64,000 nt of DNA from Bordetella sp. FB-8. GTDB lineage: Bacteria; Pseudomonadota; Gammaproteobacteria; Burkholderiales; Burkholderiaceae_B. The stretch covers positions 2,992,633-3,056,632 of the forward strand of contig NZ_KB907784.1 in the NCBI RefSeq assembly GCF_000382185.1, given 5' to 3'. Positions within the stretch are counted from its first letter, which is position 1, and every line of letters begins with the position of its first letter. Below are positions 8,730 through 45,316 of this stretch, one piece after another. The notes below the pieces were generated by a model. It worked only from the letters and a program-made list of their open reading frames with translations. It had not been told where the DNA came from and ran no database searches. A program made the translations under genes and the position numbers.

Positions 8730-9620
8730 TCATTCCCGGCGCAGGATTAGGCGCGCGACGATGTTGATGGCCAGCACCAGGCCTACAACGATCACCGCCG
8801 CCGCGTAGGCCAGGGCGTGCGCGGACGCGAACGGCTGGTTGATGAAGCTCCAGATGACGTAGGTCAGGTAGCCGATGGGTTCCTGGGTCATCTTGCCGTT
8901 CCAGAGGTAGTTGGACCAGCCCGCCGTAAAGAGCAGGGGGGCGGTTTCCCCTACCGATATCGCCAGCGACAGGAGTATGCCCGTCGTCACGCCCGAACGA
9001 GCGGCCGGCAGCAAGATGCGCAGGATGGCCTGGCTGTCCGTGCAGCCCAGCGCATAGGCGCTTTCGCGCAGCGTGGACGGATTCTGTCTCAAGGAAAGCT
9101 CGGTGAAGCGCGCGATGTAGGGCATCACCAGCACGCCGAGCGTGATGATGCCGGACAGTACTGAAAAGCCCCAGCCCAGCCAGACCACCATGGTTACATA
9201 GCTGAAGTAGCCCAGCACAACCGAGGGTACGCCTACCAGCACATCGGCCAGGAAACGCGCTATCGACGCCAGGCGGCCATTGCCGAATTCCGCCAGGTAG
9301 ATGCCCGCCGCCACGCCGGCCGGCGCGGCCCACAGCAAGGCGCCTGCGCTCAGGACGAGGGTACCTTCGATGGCATTGAGCAGGCCGCCGCTGATTCCGT
9401 TGGTCACTTCGGTGAAGACCGTCAGGTTCAGCGCGCCGGCCCCGCGCGCGAACACCGCCCACAATATGCTGGCCAGCGGCGTGACCACCAACATGAAGGA
9501 CACCAGGCAGAGCAAGGTGAAAACAGCGTCTCCTCTGCGGCGCGAGGCCGTCAGCGAGGAAAAGCGTTCAGGCTCGAACACCAGAGGGCGATTGTCGGGT
9601 AAGTAGGCGGGCGACGACAT
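8730..9620 (-). CDS. pstA: Phosphate ABC transporter permease PstA
   Basis: 296 residues with six predicted membrane segments and the inner-membrane permease EAA-like loop (YALGCTDSQAILRILLP). It is the last gene of a leftward pstS-pstC-pstA set and overlaps the pstC end by 53 bases; no better Met start exists. It converges with the EAL gene 15 bases away. PstA pairs with PstC to form the membrane channel for inorganic phosphate. The ATPase gene pstB, normally next, is absent here. Confidence 0.93.
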   Translation of the reverse strand: MSSPAYLPDNRPLVFEPERFSSLTASRRRGDAVFTLLCLVSFMLVVTPLASILWAVFARGAGALNLTVFTEVTNGISGGLLNAIEGTLVLSAGALLWAAPAGVAAGIYLAEFGNGRLASIARFLADVLVGVPSVVLGYFSYVTMVVWLGWGFSVLSGIITLGVLVMPYIARFTELSLRQNPSTLRESAYALGCTDSQAILRILLPAARSGVTTGILLSLAISVGETAPLLFTAGWSNYLWNGKMTQEPIGYLTYVIWSFINQPFASAHALAYAAAVIVVGLVLAINIVARLILRRE

Positions 9621-10527
9621 TGACGATGACGGCGATGATGAAAAGGACGACCGCGATTTCGGCCAGGGAGCGTACCGCCATCCCGCTGGGATCCTGCAGC
9701 GCGCTGTCCAGCTGAGAGGCGATGAAGGCGGCCATGCTGGTGATGGGGCTGTAAAGGGTATGCGGCAGGTAGTTCAGCGCGCCGCCGCTGACCATGAGCA
9801 CGGCCATGGTTTCGCCCAGGGCACGACCCATGGCGAGCATGGCCGATCCGATCAGCGGTATGCGTACGGACGGCAGCAGAATCTTGCGCACCATTTCGGT
9901 ACGGGTCGCGCCCAGCGCCATCGTCGATTCACGCAGTTCGCGGGGCACTCTTTGCAGCGCCTCGAGCAGCGTGCTCGATATCACGGGCAGCACCATGAGC
10001 ACCAGCACGAGTCCTGCGGTCAAGAGGCCGTAGCCGGATTCGGCGCCGGTGCCGATGAACGGAACGAAAAAGAACACCTTGGCCAGGGCGGGCGCGATGT
10101 AGCGATACACCAGGGGAGACAGCACCTCCAGTCCCCAAAGGCCATACACCACGCTGGGGACCATGGCCAGCACTTCGACGATCTGCGCGAAGACATGGCG
10201 CGCCGCCGGCGGGGTGTATTCGCCCACGAACAACCCTACGCCTATGCCTAGAGGCACGGCGATCAGCAGCGCGATGGCCGAACTGGCCAGCGTGCCGACG
10301 ATGAAAACCAGAATGCCGTAATGAGCGCCCGACGGCACGGAAAACCCGTCGTGCGAAATGGGATCGGCATACAGATTGCCCAGGCTCCAGCTCTTGGAAA
10401 CCAGGAAATGCAGGCCGTTGAAACGAATGGCGGGCCAGGAATAGACGGTCAGGAAAACGACGATCGCCAACAGCGCCAGGGGGATGAGCGCCGCGAAACA
10501 GGCCAGACTGATACGAAATGGTCGCAT
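9568..10527 (-). CDS. pstC: Phosphate ABC transporter permease PstC
   Basis: 319 residues from the ATG at 10527 (MRPFRISLAC), chosen because the first membrane segment follows at once; the longer open frame adds 21 unlikely residues. It has six membrane segments and the permease loop MALGATRTEMVRKILLP. It lies 72 bases after pstS and overlaps pstA. It forms the inner-membrane phosphate channel with PstA. Confidence 0.93.
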   Translation of the reverse strand: MRPFRISLACFAALIPLALLAIVVFLTVYSWPAIRFNGLHFLVSKSWSLGNLYADPISHDGFSVPSGAHYGILVFIVGTLASSAIALLIAVPLGIGVGLFVGEYTPPAARHVFAQIVEVLAMVPSVVYGLWGLEVLSPLVYRYIAPALAKVFFFVPFIGTGAESGYGLLTAGLVLVLMVLPVISSTLLEALQRVPRELRESTMALGATRTEMVRKILLPSVRIPLIGSAMLAMGRALGETMAVLMVSGGALNYLPHTLYSPITSMAAFIASQLDSALQDPSGMAVRSLAEIAVVLFIIAVIVNVVARLLTRQSPSGVRA

Positions 10528-10599
10528 TGAAGGCGCCGGGGCACCACCATCGCGCCCCGGCACGCAGGCCGGGAGGCGATGGCGGCACACGCGGGATCG

Positions 10600-11661
10600 T
10601 TATTGGATTTTCGAGATTTGCGCGCGGCTCAGGGTGACAATCTTAGCGGGCAGCGGCACGAACCGCACGGCGCTCAGATATTTGTCGGAATTGCCTTCGG
10701 ACGAGCCGACGGTCCAGGTGAGGAAATCCTTCAGCACGTGGCCGGTATTGGCGTCGGCCTGGTGCGTATTGACGATCGCGTATTCATAGTTGACGATCGG
10801 ATACGACTTCTCGCCGGGCGCGAAAATCAGGCTCAGACGCTCGTCGGCGGGCGTCTTGGCGACCATGGCGGCGGCCGCGGCATTGACGGTGGCGGTCGTG
10901 GGCAGCAGGAACTTGCCGGCGCGGTTCTTGAGCATCGCGGTACCCAGGCCGGCTTCGTCGATCTGCTTGTGAAAGCTCACGCCGATGTAGGCGATGGAAT
11001 ACGGGGTCTGGTGCGCGGCCTGGACCATGCCGGGGTTGCCGTTGGCGCCGACGCCGCCCTGGACCGCGGGCCAGCTCACCGAGGTGCCGTAGCCCGGGCC
11101 GCTGCTCCACGACGGCGTGGAGAACGACAGGTACTGCGTGAAGATGAAGGTGTCGCCGCTGCCGTCGGTGCGATGGACTGTCACGATGCCGTGGTCGGGC
11201 AGCTTTACGCCGGGGTTGAGCGCCTTGATCTTGGCGTCGTCCCACTTCTTGATCGAGCCGTCATAGATGCCGGCCAGCACGGGACCGTCCAGCTTCAGGT
11301 GCGTCTTGTTCAGGCCGGGCAGGTTGTAGTTAACCGTCTGCGCCGAAATGGCCAGCGGAATGTTGACGATGTTGGGCGATTGCTTCATCTGCCCATCGCT
11401 CATGTAGGCGTCGGATGCGCCGATCTGTGCCACGCCGGAAATCGCCTGCGCGATCCCGGTGCCGCTACCCGTGCCCTGCGTGGTGATCTTCACGCCGGGA
11501 TGGTTGGCGGTGTAGTCGGGGACCCACAGGTTGAACAGGGGGTACAGCAGCGTGGAACCGGTCTCGACCAGGTTTGCCGGCGCGGCGTGCGCACCCAGGC
11601 TTGCTGCCATGGCAGCGGTGGCGATCAGGTATTTGAAAGGCGGCCGTGAGGGTTTGGTCAT
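10600..11661 (-). CDS. pstS: Phosphate ABC transporter substrate-binding protein PstS
   Basis: 353 residues from ATG 11661, preferred over ATG 11676 because the latter has no ribosome site while AAGAG lies upstream of 11661. A signal peptide (cleavage near AHAA) precedes the periplasmic domain. Phosphate-binding loop signatures are TGSTLLYPL, GTGSGTGIAQ and HRTDGSGDTF. It is first in the pstS-pstC-pstA set. The 150 bases upstream carry phased direct repeats that could be PhoB sites. Confidence 0.93.
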   Translation of the reverse strand: MTKPSRPPFKYLIATAAMAASLGAHAAPANLVETGSTLLYPLFNLWVPDYTANHPGVKITTQGTGSGTGIAQAISGVAQIGASDAYMSDGQMKQSPNIVNIPLAISAQTVNYNLPGLNKTHLKLDGPVLAGIYDGSIKKWDDAKIKALNPGVKLPDHGIVTVHRTDGSGDTFIFTQYLSFSTPSWSSGPGYGTSVSWPAVQGGVGANGNPGMVQAAHQTPYSIAYIGVSFHKQIDEAGLGTAMLKNRAGKFLLPTTATVNAAAAAMVAKTPADERLSLIFAPGEKSYPIVNYEYAIVNTHQADANTGHVLKDFLTWTVGSSEGNSDKYLSAVRFVPLPAKIVTLSRAQISKIQ

Positions 11662-11744
11662 CTTGGATCTCTTCATGGTGATGGGGAAGCCGGCGCACGA
11701 CGTCGGCGGCGGGCAGGTGAGACTTCATCACACGCCTGTGACCC

Positions 11745-11810
11745 CGCTATGAAGATTTCTCGTCAAATATCTGAAATTTTCTTGTTCAATACCTGAAATA
11801 GGGTTGTTCA
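11745..11810 (-). promoter_or_regulatory. Phased 22-bp direct repeats upstream of pstS (candidate Pho box)
   Basis: Units at 11767-11788 and 11789-11810 match at 17 of 22 positions (shared CTGAAAT and TTGTTCA); a third, weaker unit at 11745-11766 matches at 13 of 22. The array is AT-rich compared with its surroundings and lies about 85-150 bases before the pstS start. PhoB binds tandem 11-bp half-sites in phosphate-starvation promoters; the 22-bp phase fits, but the sequence is not a close match to the enterobacterial consensus. Confidence 0.45.
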
Positions 11811-11817
11811 GGCGCCG

Positions 11818-14016
11818 TCAGGCGCAGCGCTGTCTGAGCCATGATGCGTCCAGGCCGAAGACCTGGCCGAACTCCCAGGCCGGCATGGGCTTGCCGAACA
11901 GATAACCTTGTCCGTCGCTGCAGCCGAGACGGCGCAGGCTTTCGCGCTGTTGCGCCGTCTCGACGCCTTCGGCAATGGTGCGCAAATCGAAGCTGCGCGC
12001 CATATCGATGATCGCTCGCACGACCGAGGCGTCCTGGTTGGACTGAACCATGCCCATGACGAAGGAACGGTCGATCTTGATGCGGCTCAGGGGGTAGCGC
12101 TTCAGAAGGCTTAGCGATGCATACCCGGTGCCGAAGTCATCGAAGGCAATGCCGATGCCCAGTTCGCGCATGCGCTTTATCGTGGCCAGAACCACATCAT
12201 CGTCCAGGACGATGTTCTCGGTCACTTCGAGTTCCAAAGCCTGCGGCGGCAGGCCATGCCGATCGAGCGCGGCCAGGATGGTTTCTTCGATGTGGCCGAC
12301 GCGAAACTGCGCGCCGAAGAGATTGACGCCCATCTGGAAAGCGGGCGCTGCGCTGCGGCGCCAGAGCGCAGCCTGGGCGCAGGCTTCCTCGAGTATCCAT
12401 ACGCCGACGGTCGGCGCGAGCGGGCCGCACTCGAGCGCAGGCAAAAACGTAGCCGGCGACATTAGCCCGCGCCGCGGATGCCGCCAGCGGATCAGCGCTT
12501 CCGCGCCCACGAGCGCGTTCGTGGACAAGTCGACTTGCGGTTGATAGAACAGGACGAACTCGCCATCGTCGACGGCCCGCTGCAATTCCATGCCGTACAG
12601 CCTGCGCCTCACCACCTCCATGCGCAAAGCCATGGTGAAGAGGAAGGTCTGGCCGCGCCCTGCGCGCTTTGCCTTGATGAGCGCCAGATCCGCGTCGCCG
12701 ATCAGTTCCAGGGCCTCCTGCGCGTGCCGTGGCGCGAGGGCGACGCCGCAGCACGCCGAAACATGCATTGCATCCATGCCCCTGGCTAAGACGGGCTGGG
12801 CGATTGTCTGCGTGGCGGCCTGGGCGACACGCCGCGCCTCTTCGATGTCCGCCATGCCGGGCAGCAGGAGCGCGAACTCGTCCGCGCCCATGCGCGCCAC
12901 CGCGTCCTCGGATCGGACGAGATTGCGCAGGCGCAGTGCCACCTCGCGCAGGACGTGGTCGCCGACAGCGTGTCCCAAGGTATCGTTGATGTCCTTGAAT
13001 CCGTCCAGGTCGATCATGATCACGGCGGCAGGGCGCGCGTGGGCCAGCGCGCCTTCCACGAGGCGGTAGAAGTGGGTGCGGTTGGCGGCTCCGGTGAGCA
13101 CGTCCAAGTTGGCCCGGCCGCGCAGCAGGTCCTTCTCGTGGCGCAAGTCGGAAAGATCCTGCAGATGCGCGTTAAAGACCAGCGCACCCTCTTCGCGCCA
13201 GCAGAACAGCGAGAAACCCAGCAGAAACTCGGTACCTTCGCGCCGCAGTCCGTCTATTTCCGATGGAACGCGTATTCCATCGAGCGAGTCTGCCGCCGCG
13301 GCCCGCGCGATCAGTTCACGCATGCTGGCGCGGCTGCGTTCGGGCACGAGCATTTCGAGCGCGCGTCCCGGACCCTCGGCGGAATCGTAGCCATACAGCG
13401 CCGCCGCGCTTTCGTTCCAGTTGAGAATGGTGCCGCGCGAATCGAAGCGGATCATGGCGGTGGGGGACTGCCACTCGGCGTGATCCGCCGGCGGGGCGGC
13501 ACGTTCGGCGAGCAGCTCGATGCGGCGCAATTCCAGCCTGTCCGAGGCCATCTTCGCCAGTTCGCGCAGGCGCTCGGCATCGTCCGCGGAAAAGTCGGCA
13601 TTCGGCTTTCTATCCATCACGCACAAGGCGCCGAGCGGATAGCCCTGCGCGGACAGTATCGGCACTCCAGCATAAAACCTGAGGTGGGTCGACCCGGTGA
13701 CGAGCGGATTGTCGTGAAAGCGCGAATCCAGCGTCGCGTCGGGGACGATCATCACCTTGTCCTGCAGGATGGCGTGCGCGCAGAAAGAGACATTGCGATC
13801 CATGTTCACGTCGACGCCATCGAAACCCGTGACTGCCGCGAAGAAGACATGGTCGTTGCCGATCATATTGACCGCGGCGACGGGCATGTCGAACATGCGC
13901 GCGGCGATTCGCACGACAGGATCCAGACTGGCTAGTTGACGATCGCCGCCCAGCTCGTATTCGGACAACGCAACAAGTCGTTCCGCTTCCACCGGTGACG
14001 CTTGAGGGCACTTCAT
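11818..14016 (-). CDS. GAF-PAS-GGDEF-EAL c-di-GMP signalling protein
   Basis: 732 residues; start supported by AAAGGAG just upstream. Order: GAF (about 25-165), PAS (180-290), GGDEF (300-460), EAL (475-725). The cyclase signature reads GADEF (377-381) rather than GGDEF, with an RSED inhibitory-site motif (368-371), so cyclase activity is doubtful. The EAL domain keeps EALIRW (Glu506), EVTEN, DDFGTG, KIDRSF and AEGVET and is probably an active phosphodiesterase. No membrane segment is seen. It lies directly upstream of pstS in the same orientation but is separated by the repeat-bearing promoter region. Confidence 0.92.
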   Translation of the reverse strand: MKCPQASPVEAERLVALSEYELGGDRQLASLDPVVRIAARMFDMPVAAVNMIGNDHVFFAAVTGFDGVDVNMDRNVSFCAHAILQDKVMIVPDATLDSRFHDNPLVTGSTHLRFYAGVPILSAQGYPLGALCVMDRKPNADFSADDAERLRELAKMASDRLELRRIELLAERAAPPADHAEWQSPTAMIRFDSRGTILNWNESAAALYGYDSAEGPGRALEMLVPERSRASMRELIARAAAADSLDGIRVPSEIDGLRREGTEFLLGFSLFCWREEGALVFNAHLQDLSDLRHEKDLLRGRANLDVLTGAANRTHFYRLVEGALAHARPAAVIMIDLDGFKDINDTLGHAVGDHVLREVALRLRNLVRSEDAVARMGADEFALLLPGMADIEEARRVAQAATQTIAQPVLARGMDAMHVSACCGVALAPRHAQEALELIGDADLALIKAKRAGRGQTFLFTMALRMEVVRRRLYGMELQRAVDDGEFVLFYQPQVDLSTNALVGAEALIRWRHPRRGLMSPATFLPALECGPLAPTVGVWILEEACAQAALWRRSAAPAFQMGVNLFGAQFRVGHIEETILAALDRHGLPPQALELEVTENIVLDDDVVLATIKRMRELGIGIAFDDFGTGYASLSLLKRYPLSRIKIDRSFVMGMVQSNQDASVVRAIIDMARSFDLRTIAEGVETAQQRESLRRLGCSDGQGYLFGKPMPAWEFGQVFGLDASWLRQRCA

Positions 14017-14122
14017 GGACGGTCTCCTTTCCTGGTCAGGGGTCCGTCAGGCGGCCCCGGACGCGGATGGCGTGCCGATCAATTTTCAGGCGCAGGATCG
14101 ATTTCCGGCGCTATTAATACGA

Positions 14123-14140
14123 TATTACAGCCTTGTAATA
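14123..14140. promoter_or_regulatory. Inverted repeat, operator-like
   Basis: TATTACA and TGTAATA form perfect 7-bp arms around GCCT in an AT-rich stretch about 110 bases before the GGDEF-EAL gene start. It lies in the 178-base gap after the reductase gene. It looks like a dimeric regulator site; the binding protein is unknown. Confidence 0.4.
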
Positions 14141-14194
14141 ATACAAAAAAGACCGTGCCTCGTCCGCCAGCCAACGCAAGCCGGACTCTCTCGT

Positions 14195-15106
14195 TCATAA
14201 CGCGCCGCTCGCTTTGTCCTCGATCAGCCTGACCAGCGTGTGCAGCAGCCGGTTTGCCGGGGTCGCCACGCCGAGCGCCTCGCCGCGCCTGACGACCAGG
14301 CCGTTCAGATGGTCGATCTCGCTGCGCTTGCCGCGCGCGAGGTCCTGCGCCGTCGAAGAATATTGAGTCGGCATGGTCTGAGCGATTCGGCTCACGGCCA
14401 GTTCTACGTCCGGCGGCAGGCTTACCCCGTCGGCTTGGGCGACGGCCATGCATTCGGCCACCACGTCGCGCATCGAGGCGCATACGCCGGTGCCCGCCGC
14501 GAGCCGGCCATAGGGCAGCTGCGAGATCGCCGAAAGCGCGTTGTAGGCGCAGTTCAGGATCAGCTTGGCCCACAGCGCTGCGCGCACATTGGCTGATACC
14601 TCGGTGGATATGCCCGCAGCGGCGAACATCTGCGCGATGGCTGCGCTTTGGGAAGAAGGTTCGATGACGAGCTCGCCGCGGCCATGATGGCGCACGTGGC
14701 CGGCGCCGGCCATTTCGGTGGCGACGTACACCACGGCCGCTGCCACTTCCTGCGCGATCGCGCCGCGCAGGCGCTCGGCGTTGTCTACACCGTTCTGCAG
14801 CGTAAGCACCAGCGAGTCGGCGGCCAGGTGCGGCCCGATGGAGGCGCCAGCGCTTTCGGTGTCGGGCGATTTCACGCAAAACAGGACAAGTCGCGCGCCG
14901 CTCACGGCGGCCGGATCAATGCTGGCTCGTAGATGCGGCGGGCCGATATGCTCGTCCAATTGCTGCGTCTGCAGGCGCAGACCGTCGCGCTCGACCGCTT
15001 GGACATGCGAGGCGCGGCCGATCAGCACGACCTCGTGTCCCGCGCGCGCAAGCATTGCGCCGTAATAGCAGCCCACCGCGCCCGCACCCATGACAGCGAT
15101 CTTCAT
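14195..15106 (-). CDS. panE: Ketopantoate reductase family protein (2-dehydropantoate 2-reductase)
   Basis: 303 residues from ATG 15106, which has AGGAGA eight bases upstream and begins directly with the nucleotide-binding fold MKIAVMGAGAVGCYYG. Other signatures are TLQNGVDN and the C-terminal helical domain with KLILNCAYNALSA. The family reduces ketopantoate with NADPH in pantothenate synthesis. Several paralogues of uncertain substrate occur in Burkholderiales, so the role is not certain. The next gene is a divergent AraC regulator. Confidence 0.85.
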   Translation of the reverse strand: MKIAVMGAGAVGCYYGAMLARAGHEVVLIGRASHVQAVERDGLRLQTQQLDEHIGPPHLRASIDPAAVSGARLVLFCVKSPDTESAGASIGPHLAADSLVLTLQNGVDNAERLRGAIAQEVAAAVVYVATEMAGAGHVRHHGRGELVIEPSSQSAAIAQMFAAAGISTEVSANVRAALWAKLILNCAYNALSAISQLPYGRLAAGTGVCASMRDVVAECMAVAQADGVSLPPDVELAVSRIAQTMPTQYSSTAQDLARGKRSEIDHLNGLVVRRGEALGVATPANRLLHTLVRLIEDKASGAL

Positions 15107-15252
15107 AGCGTATTTCTCCTGTTGGCCGCCGCGGCGGCGCATCGACTTGTGAAGTGCATCATAAATGACGCGCGGCCAACTTCATCCAGGGCGCTACGTG
15201 GACAACGCTCATGAGCAGGTACTCCAGTCCGGCATCAATCCGGGACGGGTAA

Positions 15253-16077
15253 ATGAACGACGCTCGTATCGACATAAGGCGCTATCGCGGCGAGATCGAG
15301 CGGCATCGGCATGCGTATCATCAAGTCGTCATCTCATGCGAAGGTACGATCGAGATCGAGGTGGGGCGCGAGACGGGGCGGGTCGCCGGCAGCCTAGGCG
15401 CCTTTATTCCCGCCGGATGCCAGCATGCGTTTCTCGCCCGCCAGCCCAATGCCTTTGTCGTCCTGGACGTGCAGACGGGAGGGTGCGCACACGCCCTGGA
15501 TAATGGCCAAGTGCCGCCGTTCTTCGCTATCGATCGGCGAGGTCATGGCTTGCTCGAGTACATGCGTGCCCTCGATTGGCGGGCGAGGCTCACGCCGGCG
15601 TGCCAGCAGGCATGGTCGACCTTGCTGCTGGACAGCCCCGCTGTGAATGGCCGCCGCTCGGACCGGGCCGAACTCGTGGTGCAGCGCGCCACCTCGTTCA
15701 TGCTGCACAGATTGGCCGATCCGATCTGCATCGCCGATCTCGCGCAGGCCGCGGGTGTGAGTCCGCGCCGGCTTCATGAAGCCTTTCGCGCACGGCGCGA
15801 AACCACGCCCCATACGCGACTCACGGTGTTGCGTCTTGACGCGGCCGAGCGGCTGCTGGCCGATCCCGCGCTGTCCATTGCCGAAATCGCGCTCCGAAGC
15901 GGCCATGCCGACCAGAGCGCGCTGACCCGCGCCATGCGGCGCGAGCGCGATGCGACGCCGGCCGAGGTCCGGTGCCGCCTTACGGACAAGGAGGAAAAAT
16001 GGCCGGCAATGGAACGGGCAGGGCGACGGCCTTCGGGTTGGTCGCAATCGGACTCTGGTCCGCGCTTGCGCTTTTGA
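15253..16077 (+). CDS. AraC family transcriptional regulator
   Basis: 274 residues: an N-terminal cupin-like sensor (HRHAYHQVV, FIPAGCQHAF) and a C-terminal double helix-turn-helix (IADLAQAAGVSPRRLHEAF; IAEIALRSGHADQSALTRAM). It overlaps the start of the adjacent exporter remnant by 79 bases, so its last 25 or so residues may be an extension. Neighbour position suggests it once controlled the exporter or the divergent reductase gene. Confidence 0.87.
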   Translation: MNDARIDIRRYRGEIERHRHAYHQVVISCEGTIEIEVGRETGRVAGSLGAFIPAGCQHAFLARQPNAFVVLDVQTGGCAHALDNGQVPPFFAIDRRGHGLLEYMRALDWRARLTPACQQAWSTLLLDSPAVNGRRSDRAELVVQRATSFMLHRLADPICIADLAQAAGVSPRRLHEAFRARRETTPHTRLTVLRLDAAERLLADPALSIAEIALRSGHADQSALTRAMRRERDATPAEVRCRLTDKEEKWPAMERAGRRPSGWSQSDSGPRLRF

Positions 16078-37382: not shown

Positions 37383-38198
37383 CTACTTGCCCAGCCACTT
37401 GCTGCTAATCTGCGCGTATTCGCCGCTGGCCTTTGCCAGATGCAGCCATTGATCGACGAAGCGCTTGAATACCTCGTCGCCGCTGGGCAGCATATAGCCC
37501 ATTTCGCCGTATTGCAGCGGCTTGGTCGGATTGACTGCGCACAGGCCGGGATGCAGCTTGCTCTGCACGATGGCCTCGGCGCCTTCGGTCACGAACACAT
37601 CGGCATGGCCTTTGAGGATTTCGTCGAATATAGTGAGATTGTCCTTGTTCTGGATGAGCTTGGCGTTGGGCAGCTTGGTCTTGGCAAAGGTCTCGTTGCT
37701 GCCGCCCGGGTTGTAGATGACGCGCACCATGGGCTTGTTGATTTGTGCGATGGTCTGGTATTTCTTGACGTTCTTGCACAGCGTGATGGGCGTCTTGCCG
37801 TTGACCATGTAGCCCTTGCTGAAATACACGTGCTCCTGGCGCGGCAGCGAGATCGAAATGCCACCCGCCGCGACGTCGCACTTGCCTGCGGCGAAGTCGG
37901 ACAGCAGATTGGCCCAGGTGGTCTTGACGAACTGCGGCTTGGCGCCCAGAGCGGCGGCCAGGGACCCCATCAGATCGATGTCCAGGCCTTCGAACTGTCC
38001 GGGGGAGGTCATGAAACTGAAAGGCTTGTAGTCGCCCGGTGTGCACACGCGCAGCACGTGGCTTTGCATGACCTTGTCCAGCGTGGATGTGGGTGCGGCG
38101 ACAGGCGCGGCGGCCGGGGCAGGCGCGGGCTGCGCCATGGCCGGCGACTGGGATAGCGCCAGGACGCTGGCGCAGGCAGCAAGGGCAAGGCGTTTCAT
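37383..38198 (-). CDS. Orphan periplasmic binding protein, cyclohexadienyl-dehydratase (PheC)-like
   Basis: 271 residues with a signal peptide (cleavage near AMAQ) and a proline/alanine-rich linker. SBP_bac_3 fold with segments RVCTPGDYKPFSF, QFEGLDIDLM and ICYNPGG-like RVIYNPGGSNETFA that closely recall periplasmic PheC (arogenate/prephenate dehydratase) of pseudomonads. It could be such an enzyme or a plain amino-acid binder; no permease or ATPase is adjacent. Confidence 0.8.
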   Translation of the reverse strand: MKRLALAACASVLALSQSPAMAQPAPAPAAAPVAAPTSTLDKVMQSHVLRVCTPGDYKPFSFMTSPGQFEGLDIDLMGSLAAALGAKPQFVKTTWANLLSDFAAGKCDVAAGGISISLPRQEHVYFSKGYMVNGKTPITLCKNVKKYQTIAQINKPMVRVIYNPGGSNETFAKTKLPNAKLIQNKDNLTIFDEILKGHADVFVTEGAEAIVQSKLHPGLCAVNPTKPLQYGEMGYMLPSGDEVFKRFVDQWLHLAKASGEYAQISSKWLGK

Positions 38199-41005: not shown

Positions 41006-41203
41006 TCAGGCGTAGGTGTTGACCTGCGTACCCAGAGTGCCCGAAGTCGCCACCTGTGGCGCAACGGATTGCATAAGTTGGTTGATCTCGTCGGTCGCCG
41101 TATTCAGGCTCTTGCGCAGCATGAGCGTACCCACTGCCTCGCTCGTGCTGGACGACTGCATGTTCAAGGCCGTATTGACCATGGCGCTGGCGGAAATATC
41201 CAT
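41006..41203 (-). CDS. Small YjfB-like putative motility protein
   Basis: 65 residues with a perfect AAGGAGG site before ATG 41203. The composition (MDISASAMVN start, NMQSSSTSEAVGTLMLRKSL, a C-terminal short helix) fits the small YjfB family labelled putative motility proteins. No signal peptide. It stands alone, ends at the shared terminator, and has no flagellar genes beside it. Function uncertain. Confidence 0.75.
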   Translation of the reverse strand: MDISASAMVNTALNMQSSSTSEAVGTLMLRKSLNTATDEINQLMQSVAPQVATSGTLGTQVNTYA

Positions 41204-41285
41204 GCGGGTTCCTCCTTCGATGCGTATTGACTGAAACTATCATAGCCGCGCCGGCGGCCGAGGTATGTAACAGCTGGTCGATTGG

Positions 41286-41310: not shown

Positions 41311-42219
41311 TTATTGCGTCCCCGACTTCGCTTCCGAAAACAGGAAGCGCATGGCCGGGTTCATGGGCAAGTGCAAATCGACGCCCAGGCCGGGTAGCGG
41401 AGTATCGAACCAGCGGTCGTAGATGGCCTGCATGTCCGGGCCGGCGTAGATCCGGCGCATGGCCGCGTCGACGGCATGGGCGAACGTCGGATCACCGCGG
41501 CGGATCATGAATCCATAGCGCAGGGGCGGCGCCAGTGTGTCGCGGGAAATTGCATAGCGTTCCGGCTGCCCCGAGGCGTCGATCATCATGCGCAGTAGCA
41601 CGTCGTCCATGGGAAAGGCGCTGACCCTGCCCTGTGTGAGCAGATCGAATGCCGCCTGATTGGTCGAGACGATGAAGATGGACAGGTTGAGCCGGTTCTG
41701 GCGATTGAGCCGGGCGATGTCGCTCACGTTGCTTGTGCCTCTTACGGCGGCCACGCTCTTGCCATGCAGGTCCTCGATCGTTCGCAGCGAATCGGCCGCC
41801 AGCGATGCATAGCGCGACTGGGTAATGAAATGGCTGGGGGCGAAGGCCACAGTGGCGAGCCGTTGCGCAGTGATCGTGCTGGTGCCGCACTCGATGTCGA
41901 CTGCGCCATTTTTGACCTCGTCGATGCGGTCGCCGTAGGAAAGTTGGTCGTATTGAACCGTGAGCTTGGGCAGGGCGAGTTGGGCGCGCAAGACATCGGC
42001 CAGCCGATTGCACAATTCGATCGAATAGCCCGTCACCTTGCCGTTTGCGTCGATATAGTCGAACGGCGGTTCGTGGCCGTCGTAGCCGATGCGCAGCACC
42101 TGCGTGCGGCGTATGCGATCCAGGGTGGAGAGGGCGGGCTGGGCCAGGGCCGTGCCGCAGGCCAACAGCGCGGCCATCAGGCCCAGGTAATGGCATTTTC
42201 TAAACGCAGGCGGGCGCAT
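41311..42219 (-). CDS. Amino-acid-type periplasmic binding protein (GltI-like), first of pair
   Basis: 302 residues from ATG 42219, behind GGAAG; a long upstream extension of the frame is rejected because the signal peptide (cleavage near ALAQ) begins here. SBP_bac_3 signatures: GYDGHEPPFDYID, GYSIELCNRLAD and GTSTITAQRL. Last gene of a leftward set after a diguanylate cyclase and another binding protein, with 14 bases between. No permease or ATPase is present. Confidence 0.9.
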   Translation of the reverse strand: MRPPAFRKCHYLGLMAALLACGTALAQPALSTLDRIRRTQVLRIGYDGHEPPFDYIDANGKVTGYSIELCNRLADVLRAQLALPKLTVQYDQLSYGDRIDEVKNGAVDIECGTSTITAQRLATVAFAPSHFITQSRYASLAADSLRTIEDLHGKSVAAVRGTSNVSDIARLNRQNRLNLSIFIVSTNQAAFDLLTQGRVSAFPMDDVLLRMMIDASGQPERYAISRDTLAPPLRYGFMIRRGDPTFAHAVDAAMRRIYAGPDMQAIYDRWFDTPLPGLGVDLHLPMNPAMRFLFSEAKSGTQ

Positions 42220-42233
42220 GGTGTGGCTTCCAG

Positions 42234-43187
42234 TCAGTTCAGGTACTCGTGCGGCGCGGCGATCCAGTCGCGCAGTGTGGAAGACATGGGAAGATTCAGG
42301 CTGCGGCCATAGGGCGGAATCGGCTGTATGAACCACTTCTTGTAAAGGCGGTCGATTTCATGGCCGGCGAACAGCCTGCTCAATGCCTGATCGACTGCGC
42401 TCTTGAAGGCGATGTCGCCGGCCGGCATGACTATGCCGTAAGGTTCGGGCGCGCTGAACGTCTCCTGCGAGATGACGTAGTCGTCGGGATCGCTGGAACT
42501 GGCGACCAGGCCGGCCAGGATGCTGTGGTCCATGACGAAGGCCGAGGCCTGGCCGGTTTCGACCATGCGGAAAGCCGCGCCGTGTGTGCGGCGCAGCGCC
42601 ACGAGAATATGCAAATCGCGCGCTTTGTTGACGCTGTTGAGCTGATCCAGGTCGCTCGTGCCCGAGGTGGCCGCGACCGTGTGTCCGGCCAGATCGGCAA
42701 TGGTGTTGATCGCGGCGTTCTTTTTGGTGACGAAATTCGTCGTCGTGAAGAAGTAAGGGTAGGAAAACTCGGCCTGCTTGCGGCGCGCGGGGGTATTGGT
42801 GGTCGTGGCGCATTCCATGTCGATGCTGCCGTTGTTGACCAGGATGAAACGGGTCGCCGTGTCGACCGCTTTGTAATCGATCTCGACATGACCTAGATCG
42901 CGTCGCTTGGCCATGTCCTTGACTATTTCCTTGCAGATGTCGATGGTATAGCCCATGACCTGGCCGTTGACCGAGAAAGAAAACGGTGGCCCGCTGTGGC
43001 GGTAGCCGATGACGATGCGGTGCGTGCGGGCGATCTTGGCCAGGGTGTCCGCCGCCCACGCCGGCAAAGTCGGCGCGGCCCACAGCGCGGCAGCGCATGC
43101 TAGGACCAGCCAGCGCCGCAAGCAAGACAGGCCGGCGCGAGGCCTCAGGGGCAGGGTGCGTACGATGTGCATGATCGCGCTGGACAT
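42234..43187 (-). CDS. Amino-acid-type periplasmic binding protein (GltI-like), second of pair
   Basis: 317 residues from ATG 43187; a Met five codons on is possible. Signal peptide with cleavage near AWAA. SBP_bac_3 signatures GYRHSGPPFSFSV, GYTIDICKEIVKDM and ECATTTNTPARR, homologous to its neighbour. It begins seven bases after the diguanylate cyclase stop. It looks like a glutamate/aspartate-class binder, but the ligand cannot be read from sequence. Confidence 0.9.
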   Translation of the reverse strand: MSSAIMHIVRTLPLRPRAGLSCLRRWLVLACAAALWAAPTLPAWAADTLAKIARTHRIVIGYRHSGPPFSFSVNGQVMGYTIDICKEIVKDMAKRRDLGHVEIDYKAVDTATRFILVNNGSIDMECATTTNTPARRKQAEFSYPYFFTTTNFVTKKNAAINTIADLAGHTVAATSGTSDLDQLNSVNKARDLHILVALRRTHGAAFRMVETGQASAFVMDHSILAGLVASSSDPDDYVISQETFSAPEPYGIVMPAGDIAFKSAVDQALSRLFAGHEIDRLYKKWFIQPIPPYGRSLNLPMSSTLRDWIAAPHEYLN

Positions 43188-43194
43188 GATGGAC

Positions 43195-44670
43195 TCAATG
43201 CGTGGAGGTGCCGATCCACCCTTCGCCGGGTGCGCGAGGCTCATGGAAGAGATAGCGGCCGCGTCCGGCGTTCTTGGCTGCGTACAGCGCCGCATCGGCG
43301 TGCTTGAGCAGATCGTGGGCAGTGTCGCCGTCGTCGGGGGCCAGCGCGACGCCTATGCTCGTGCCGATAGTCAGCGCCACGCCGTTGATCAGGAAGGGGC
43401 GCTGTAGCGCTTCGAGGATGCGCTCGGCCAGCTTGCTGGCTTCCTGCTTCGCGTCGCGCATGACGGTCTGCACCACGACGAACTCATCGCCGCCCAGCCT
43501 TACAGCAAGATCTTCGGAGCCGAGCAGCAGATTCAGGCGATCGCCGACGGCTACGAGCAGCGCGTCGCCCGCGGCGTGGCCATGGCTGTCGTTGACCGGC
43601 TTGAAACGATCCAGGTCGAACAGCATCAGGTTGAAGCGGTCGCCCGAGGGCAGCGCTGCGATCATGCGCGTCAGCACGCGGTTGAGAAAGGCGCGGTTGG
43701 GCAGGCCCGTCAGCGCGTCGTGATGCGCCATGTGTTCCAGTCGTACGGCGGTTTCCCTGATGGACAGCAACTGCTCGCGTTCGACTGCAGCTTTGCGCAG
43801 CGTCTCGATGGCGTCGGCGAGCTGGCCGATTTCATCCGGCCTGCCCTGGTGCGGCGTGACGGTCTGGATATCGCCCTGCGCCATGCCGATGAGCGAGCGG
43901 ATCAGCGTCGGTACGGGGCCGAACAGGCGACGCAGGAGCCAGATAATAGCCAATGTGGCAGCCAGCAGCACGATCAGCAGCACCAGCAAGGCATTGTGGA
44001 TGAGGGTGTTGCGCGTGCGGTAGAGCTGCTCTCGCGTGCCGATACTCGAAATCAGGGCGCCAGTCTGCTTGCCCAGCCGCGTTGCGATGGGAATGGCGTT
44101 GACGAAGTATTCATGGCCGTTGATGCGGGCAAATCCAGTGTAGGGTTCTCTGAGGTTCTGTAGTTTGGACGAAACCTGCTTCCTGTCGAATTCCGACGAA
44201 CCTGCGTCGGCGCTGACCAGGGTATAGCCCGGGGTCTTGTCCGGCTGGTAGTGGAGCAGCCATACATTGTTCAGGGTTTGCGCCGACGCCAGCGCCAGGA
44301 CGTCGACAGGGCTGAATCCCGTTTGCAGGATGGAGTCTTCGTCGCCCAGTGGCGTATCCGAAACGATGCGGGTGACCCGCCCGCTCGGATCGTTCTGCAC
44401 CGTGACGAAGGTGTAGATGCCACGTATGGCGGTGGTGGAGATCTGGGTGTCGATGGTGGCCTGGTTCCACCATTGGTCGCGCGAAATGCGCTCGACCACG
44501 ATGAAACCGATGCTCGCGCCTATACCGTAGGCCAGCATTACGGCGCCCAGCAGGAACAGCACTGTCTTGCCCAGAAGCGACTGGCGCCAGCGCGGTGCGG
44601 CGCCGTTTGCTGGCAAGCTGGGCTGCGCAGGCGGCGGCGATGCTTGCGGGTTGGGCCGGAATTGCTCCAT
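43195..44670 (-). CDS. Membrane diguanylate cyclase with periplasmic sensor domain
   Basis: 491 residues from ATG 44670. Proline-rich cytoplasmic N-terminus, membrane segment (33-58), periplasmic domain (about 60-223), membrane segment (226-249), HAMP (about 250-300), GGDEF domain (315-475). The active-site motif is intact (RLGGDEF, 391-397). The inhibitory RxxD site is replaced by GSED (384-387), suggesting loss of product inhibition. It leads directly into two periplasmic binding-protein genes, implying ligand-loaded binding proteins could dock on its periplasmic domain. It lies 37 bases after maf. Confidence 0.93.
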   Translation of the reverse strand: MEQFRPNPQASPPPAQPSLPANGAAPRWRQSLLGKTVLFLLGAVMLAYGIGASIGFIVVERISRDQWWNQATIDTQISTTAIRGIYTFVTVQNDPSGRVTRIVSDTPLGDEDSILQTGFSPVDVLALASAQTLNNVWLLHYQPDKTPGYTLVSADAGSSEFDRKQVSSKLQNLREPYTGFARINGHEYFVNAIPIATRLGKQTGALISSIGTREQLYRTRNTLIHNALLVLLIVLLAATLAIIWLLRRLFGPVPTLIRSLIGMAQGDIQTVTPHQGRPDEIGQLADAIETLRKAAVEREQLLSIRETAVRLEHMAHHDALTGLPNRAFLNRVLTRMIAALPSGDRFNLMLFDLDRFKPVNDSHGHAAGDALLVAVGDRLNLLLGSEDLAVRLGGDEFVVVQTVMRDAKQEASKLAERILEALQRPFLINGVALTIGTSIGVALAPDDGDTAHDLLKHADAALYAAKNAGRGRYLFHEPRAPGEGWIGTSTH

Positions 44671-44707: not shown

Positions 44708-45316
44708 TTATGGCAGATCGATGCCGCCCCGGGCAAGCAATTGGGCTGTCTCGTACAAAGGCAGGCCCATCACCCCGCTGTAGCTGCCCGTGATGCGCTC
44801 GATGAAAATACCGGCCACGCCCTGGATACCGTAGGCGCCAGCCTTGCCATAGGGTTCTCCGCTGTCGCAGTAGCGTTCCCGCTCCAAGGCGGTCGTGGCA
44901 CGCAGGGCGACCTGGGTGACGCAGACCGCTTCGAACAGGTGTCCGGGCGTGGCCAGGGCGACGGCGGTGCGGACTTCGTGCGTGGTGCCCGACAGGGACC
45001 GCAGTATGCGCAGGGCGTCGGCTCGGTCGACCGGTTTGCCCAGTACGGCGCCATCGAGAATGACGGTGGTGTCGGCCGCGAGCACCGGCAGGACGTCAAG
45101 CGACTGGCGCATCATCCATGCTTGGCCGCGTTGGGCTTTTTCGCGGGCGGTGCGCAGCACGTAGTCGGCGGGACTTTCGCCGGGCAGTTGCGGTTCGTCT
45201 TCGCCCGCAGGAGCCGGTGTATGCAGGACTTGATGCATCAGGCCGATCTGCAGCAGCAGCTCCCGACGGCGTGGGCTGGCCGAGGCTAGATAGAGGCGGG
45301 GGGCGGGGGGATTCAT
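44708..45316 (-). CDS. maf: Maf-like nucleoside triphosphate pyrophosphatase
   Basis: 202 residues from ATG 45316. Signatures: [12 protein letters not shown] at the N-terminus, the ADTTVILDG motif and the C-terminal [24 protein letters not shown] region, all typical of Maf/YhdE enzymes that hydrolyse dTTP, UTP or modified nucleotides. The start overlaps the rlmH stop by four bases. Confidence 0.94.

Follow-up and report, generated by a model that had tools for sequence, protein, structure and literature searches.

Several described systems let a substrate-binding protein (SBP) act on cyclic di-GMP (c-di-GMP) rather than on uptake alone. In the NspS-MbaA system of Vibrio cholerae and Sinorhizobium meliloti, c-di-GMP is reportedly set by whether the SBP carries its ligand (PMC8967002, PMC9993111); in Salmonella, the amino-acid SBP ArtI and the periplasmic Cache domain of STM1987 are described as both required for the arginine response of c-di-GMP (PMC8846402); and CdgH of V. 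cholerae, a single diguanylate cyclase, carries two SBP domains for amino acids, one preferring Arg/Lys/Orn and the other Gln/His (PMC5431781). Here we analyzed a 64,000-nt stretch of the Bordetella sp. FB-8 genome (the window), in which the gene of a membrane diguanylate cyclase is followed by two separate SBP genes. We found that this three-gene cassette is conserved in distant lineages, and it is probably a dedicated two-SBP input module for the cyclase. Its components are as follows.

43195..44670, minus strand: membrane diguanylate cyclase, 491 aa (ATG at 44670, stop at 43195).
43933..44592, minus strand: sensor stretch used for folding, cyclase residues 27-246, spanning the first transmembrane helix (TM1), the Cache domain and the second helix (TM2); this conserved stretch is what defines the cassette.
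42234..43187, minus strand: SBP1, 317 aa, a GltI-like SBP_bac_3 protein with a Sec-type signal sequence recognized by eye.
41311..42219, minus strand: SBP2, 302 aa, an SBP_bac_3 protein with a Sec-type signal sequence recognized by eye.

Reading of the open frames gives gaps of 7 nt between the cyclase and SBP1 and of 14 nt between SBP1 and SBP2, with further upstream alternative starts in both SBP frames. The frames and the Pfam matches (SBP_bac_3, E 7.8e-28 for SBP1 and 1.4e-24 for SBP2) agree with the initial annotation, which had proposed a three-gene set at 41311..44670 with these gaps; as it also stated, neither a permease nor an ATPase adjoins the set in the window. The cyclase is laid out as TM1 (~34-58), a predicted periplasmic single-Cache domain (~60-216), TM2 (~222-245), HAMP (244-293) and GGDEF (315-471), the limits of TM1 and TM2 having been set by eye and from the helices of the structure model. 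A periplasmic domain, HAMP and GGDEF had likewise been read from the sequence at the outset. The GGDEF domain is complete (Pfam E 1.2e-44) with an intact RLGGDEF signature, and the HAMP match lies below the Pfam cut-off (21.4 vs 25 bits).

Relatives were sought with an alignment of the sensor only (A1). Both SBP genes lie downstream of the receptor, on the same strand and in the same order, in 46 of the 50 sensor-bearing loci, and at least one SBP gene is present in 48. The initial annotation had named a non-conserved order as one of the outcomes that would speak against its proposal; the opposite was found. Loci with both SBPs account for 10/10 in Rhizobiaceae, 12/13 in a Vreelandella-like genus (so called because its proteins resemble one named Vreelandella boliviensis) and 3/3 in a Bordetella-like group (a label resting on the names of close homologues). 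In g102, a gammaproteobacterial genus with two cassette copies per genome, they account for 12/12 of copy A and 9/12 of copy B. The 10 rhizobial loci were drawn from the best 80 loci of one scan and from 2 of 141 plasmid records, and so give no frequency estimate. Within the two-SBP loci no more than 58 nt separates the open frames of the paired SBPs; SBP2 is broken over two frames in L141 and L156, both counted among the 46, and is short in L163. As for the remaining loci, L147 (Vreelandella-like) and L161 keep a single SBP gene, of the SBP2 type, and L165 and L166, whose copy-B receptors are shortened to ~500 aa, have none. The copy-B receptor of L158 is likewise cut to ~500 aa, yet both SBPs are kept there. 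By comparison, 72 GGDEF loci that lack the sensor, the remainder of the best 80 loci from one scan, were searched over stored flanks of up to 8 kb, and not one contained an SBP1/2-like gene (E up to 1e-10). A chance neighbourhood was rejected on this contrast between 46/50 sensor loci with the ordered pair and 0/72 sensor-less loci.

The two SBPs also form distinct groups. A tree was made from 90 rows, comprising 44 first-position, 43 second-position and 2 single SBPs together with DEBP; L141 and L156 were excluded entirely, as was the short SBP2 of L163. All 44 first-position SBPs stand opposite all 43 second-position SBPs across one branch (98/94; 200/200 bootstrap trees), and the single SBPs of L147 and L161 group as SBP2-type. 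The tree is unrooted; DEBP joins the first-position side by a long branch, and a long-branch warning was issued by the program. The separation of first and second SBPs suggests an ancient origin of the ordered pair. The two groups, which have no permease for polar amino acids next to them, are in keeping with the earlier proposal of a distinct arrangement of two SBPs for one cyclase.

Both SBPs had been described as GltI-like, and PRK10797 (GltI) is indeed the best NCBIfam model for each; however, the scores of 187.7 bits (SBP1) and 142.1 bits (SBP2) lie under the cut-off of 375, which argues that they are GltI-like proteins and not GltI. The nearest solved relative by sequence is also GltI/DEBP (2vha, 2ia4), with E values of 4.9e-48 for SBP1 and 1.1e-38 for SBP2. 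In DEBP chain numbering, SBP1 keeps R24, R75, R97, H164 and D182 and has T in place of S72, whereas SBP2 keeps R75, R97 and D182 and has D, Y and N in place of R24, S72 and H164, respectively. The position of S27, located by eye in the alignments, is occupied by G in SBP1 and by E in SBP2. S72 and S27 are reported to contact the side-chain carboxylate of the ligand, and replacement of S72 by A, P or T to favour aspartate (PMC10942590). Judged by these residues, the SBP1 pocket appears to be of the Glu/Asp type and to lean toward aspartate, and the changed pocket of SBP2 suggests a different, perhaps cationic, amino acid. Each of the 89 cassette SBPs used for the tree has R97. In g102, D182 is missing from SBP1 in copies A and B and from SBP2 in copy B, indicating that ligands have probably diverged between lineages.

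Transport genes were considered both around the cassettes and elsewhere in the FB-8 genome. No GltJ/GltK-like permease (E 1e-8) was found in any of the 49 non-window loci, in stored stretches of ~5 to 18 kb per locus, with this genome's GltJ, GltK and GltL as the only queries. At another place the FB-8 genome encodes a GltIJKL-like set, so called from its gene order and best NCBIfam models; all of the models are below cut-off except one permease domain, and its SBP scores 300.3 bits against the 375 of PRK10797. This SBP, which has its own permeases and ATPase, is the nearest paralogue of SBP1 in the genome (40% identity). Because an SBP is already encoded with the GltJKL-like transporter, we rejected the idea that SBP1 and SBP2 are its absent partner. 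The window contains a second ABC (ATP-binding cassette) set for polar amino acids, ~20 kb from the cassette. A further SBP_bac_3 gene is located at 37383-38198 on the minus strand of the window, its best NCBIfam model being a cystine-binding protein, below cut-off.

The periplasmic part of the cyclase is predicted to fold as a single Cache domain. The sensor model has a long N-terminal helix and one PAS-like sheet module, and it matches solved single-Cache domains structurally. With Pfam sCache_3_3 the window piece scores 13.3 bits (cut-off 28.8), and 18 of 41 members match the Pfam sCache_3 profile at E up to 1, with a best value of 0.00014.

As regards output, 48 of the 50 cassette cyclases have an intact GGDEF, the exceptions being L095, which is frameshifted there, and L096, which has DGDEF. 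The window protein stops after GGDEF, with no EAL, and by its sequence it is the synthase-only, EAL-less form within a receptor family whose members in Rhizobiaceae and g102 are mostly GGDEF-EAL. Rhizobial receptors are 733-780 aa long in the nine loci read and run on into EAL before the two SBPs; receptors too short for EAL are those of the Vreelandella-like and Bordetella-like groups and three from copy B (L158, L165, L166). EAL motifs appear complete in the six rhizobial rows shown; in the nine shown for g102, IKID is replaced by IKIA, which removes an Asp that matters for EAL catalysis. Where the RxxD motif of the inhibitory site (I-site) would be, the window cyclase has GSED. The initial annotation was correct that the I-site is missing, but not in treating this as distinctive: the RxxD Arg is absent from all 50 cassette cyclases compared, and RxxD is absent from MbaA by its published description. 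The missing I-site was therefore rejected as a distinguishing mark.

In g102, LapG and LapD are encoded by the next two genes after the GGDEF-EAL receptor and two SBPs in 12/12 loci of copy A, and copy B has neither there. Their domains were read in L097 (whole cluster at 9023-15697), where LapG has Peptidase_C93 and LapD has LapD_MoxY_N, HAMP, GGDEF and EAL. In that genus the receptor family is thereby linked to an established adhesin switch operated by c-di-GMP. In a LapD family search of the FB-8 genome, the control was without a match anywhere. Beside copy B, L099:10790-12856 encodes a 688-aa protein in which an EIIC domain of the phosphotransferase system (PTS) precedes an EAL domain, and L100 has a 688-aa frame of similar start at the equivalent position.

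The taxonomic distribution of the cassette is uneven. Full-length sensor relatives were found in 5 of 398 genomes of the phylum, counting FB-8 itself, along with two partial matches. In its own genus the sensor is present in 3/15 genomes, two of these three being incomplete assemblies, and in the order of the window it was found in 1/399 genomes, that of FB-8; the whole cyclase protein at 1e-60 gave 1/151 family genomes. Elsewhere, it is carried by 13 of 201 genomes of one family, all in the Vreelandella-like genus, and by 12/12 genomes of g102 with two copies each. The survey of Burkholderiales that had been suggested thus yielded no order-wide arrangement, the other occurrences being in the Vreelandella-like genus, Rhizobiaceae and g102. 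The gene preceding the cassette is

44708..45316, minus strand: presumably maf, judging by its sequence; 37 nt upstream of the cyclase on the same strand, and not part of the sensor.

The rlmH-maf pair is kept in the genus; both in the window and in G554, maf is succeeded by the cassette. In 12 other genomes of the genus, maf is present but nothing within 1.5 kb of it matches the cyclase, and a search for maf in G555 gave no hit. Presence or absence of the cassette after a conserved rlmH-maf pair suggests that it was gained or lost at one fixed position. A small open frame, presumably YjfB-like, comes directly after the cassette (41009-41206, minus strand). Base composition is unremarkable, and a promoter and terminator scan gave 0 promoter-like sites vs 1.0 in shuffles and 5 terminator-like sites vs 2.8 (sd 1.8).

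The best explanation of these data, to which we assign a probability of roughly two in three, is that loaded SBPs dock on the cyclase and provide two amino-acid inputs to c-di-GMP. It draws on gene order and its conservation, the two SBP groups, the absence of an adjacent polar amino-acid permease, the intact GGDEF and the predicted Cache-type fold. In this mechanism, SBP1 and SBP2 would be exported to the periplasm and each would bind a different amino acid, SBP1 one of the aspartate/glutamate type and SBP2 another, possibly cationic. Once closed around their ligands, the SBPs would dock on the dimeric cyclase at its Cache domain, and docking would shift the TM2-HAMP segment and alter GGDEF activity, so that the c-di-GMP level would report amino-acid availability. 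Export, ligands, docking, the dimer, the activating state and the action of both SBPs on one cyclase are the elements that we infer. More tentatively, and with the odds somewhat against it, the SBPs may dock pairwise (one per protomer or face) on the single-Cache cyclase as a logic gate in alpha- and gammaproteobacteria, c-di-GMP rising only with a given two-amino-acid combination. If so, the gate would share a gene cluster with the LapG-LapD adhesin switch in g102.

Several observations weigh against docking of both SBPs as the function of the cassette. The pair is not strictly required, as 2/50 loci have a cyclase, in shortened form, but no SBP, and another 2 have a single SBP. In G412 (L089, L103) and G447 (L090, L104), other proteins match part of the sensor and HAMP region and have no SBP adjoining, and within the order to which the window belongs the cassette is rare and unevenly spread. 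A complete SBP/permease/ATPase set, presumably nitrate/sulfonate-like, occupies L144:1458-4545 on the opposite strand and ends ~65 nt from the SBP2 end; an ATPase as in this set was matched also in L145-L147, and L003 has a further ABC set, presumably peptide-type, downstream of the cassette. The L144 and L003 sets carry their own SBPs and, in the loci read, are not common to lineages. Finally, a Cache domain can itself bind small molecules.

A narrower form of the docking mechanism, whose odds overlap with it, is that only one SBP signals through the cyclase and the second serves as a docking competitor or a ligand sink, with no two-ligand integration. The retention of the SBP2 type alone in L147 and L161 is consistent with this; however, both SBPs are retained in 46/50 loci, each position having its own pocket pattern, and we consider a single signaller rather unlikely. 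Alternatively, the Cache domain may be the true sensor, of a small carboxylate or amino acid, with the SBPs concentrating or delivering the ligand or tuning its periplasmic level. For formate-binding single Cache domains a conserved Arg (and a Thr in PacF) has been reported. The sensor shares 16% sequence identity with 8py1, and its loops vary in sequence and are modelled with low confidence; moreover, delivery alone would leave two ordered SBP groups unexplained, and we consider this alternative improbable. Slightly less probable again is that the SBPs are transport proteins that pass their ligand to an ABC transporter for polar amino acids encoded far away, and adjoin the cyclase only for the sake of co-regulation: SBP_bac_3 proteins are typically ABC-type, several SBPs sharing permeases is a known situation, and both the GltIJKL-like set, with its SBP1 paralogue, and the second polar amino-acid set in the window are at hand, but the former already has its own SBP, the stored stretches of 49/49 other loci contain no GltJ/GltK-like permease, and the order is fixed with one sensor across four lineages.

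To our knowledge, the inputs of most diguanylate cyclases are unknown. The cassette points to candidate inputs through gene linkage and a pocket-based prediction for each SBP, and would be a clean model for one receptor reading two loaded binding proteins, its LapG/LapD-linked form in g102 offering a nearby measurable output. Term searches of the open-licence literature found no report of a cyclase with two separate linked SBPs.

GltI serves GltJKL, whereas no GltJKL-type permease lies beside SBP1 and SBP2, and SBP2 has altered side-chain pocket residues. ArtI is the SBP of the arginine transporter, and its gene is not known to lie beside that of STM1987. By the published descriptions, STM1987 has a dCACHE_1 domain and a single SBP, in contrast to the single Cache domain and two linked SBPs found here. 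The SBP domains of CdgH are described as fused to the cyclase, whereas here there are three separate genes and the cyclase carries a Cache domain. NspS-MbaA resembles the cassette in that an SBP gene is linked to a membrane HAMP-GGDEF(-EAL) protein; here no ABC permease of the SBPs' own type is found beside it. As described, however, NspS is one PotD-like polyamine SBP encoded before MbaA, and MbaA has an SGDEF motif and periplasmic residues 24-256 in S. meliloti; the cassette has two GltI-like SBP_bac_3 proteins encoded after the cyclase, a GGDEF motif and a periplasmic part of ~160 residues. MbaA has GGDEF and EAL, the window protein lacks EAL, and its Rhizobiaceae relatives have it; no MbaA-like SGDEF protein was found among the 72 control loci. 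We consider that the cassette extends the kind of SBP-to-c-di-GMP signalling known from NspS-MbaA, ArtI-STM1987 and CdgH as a new variant.
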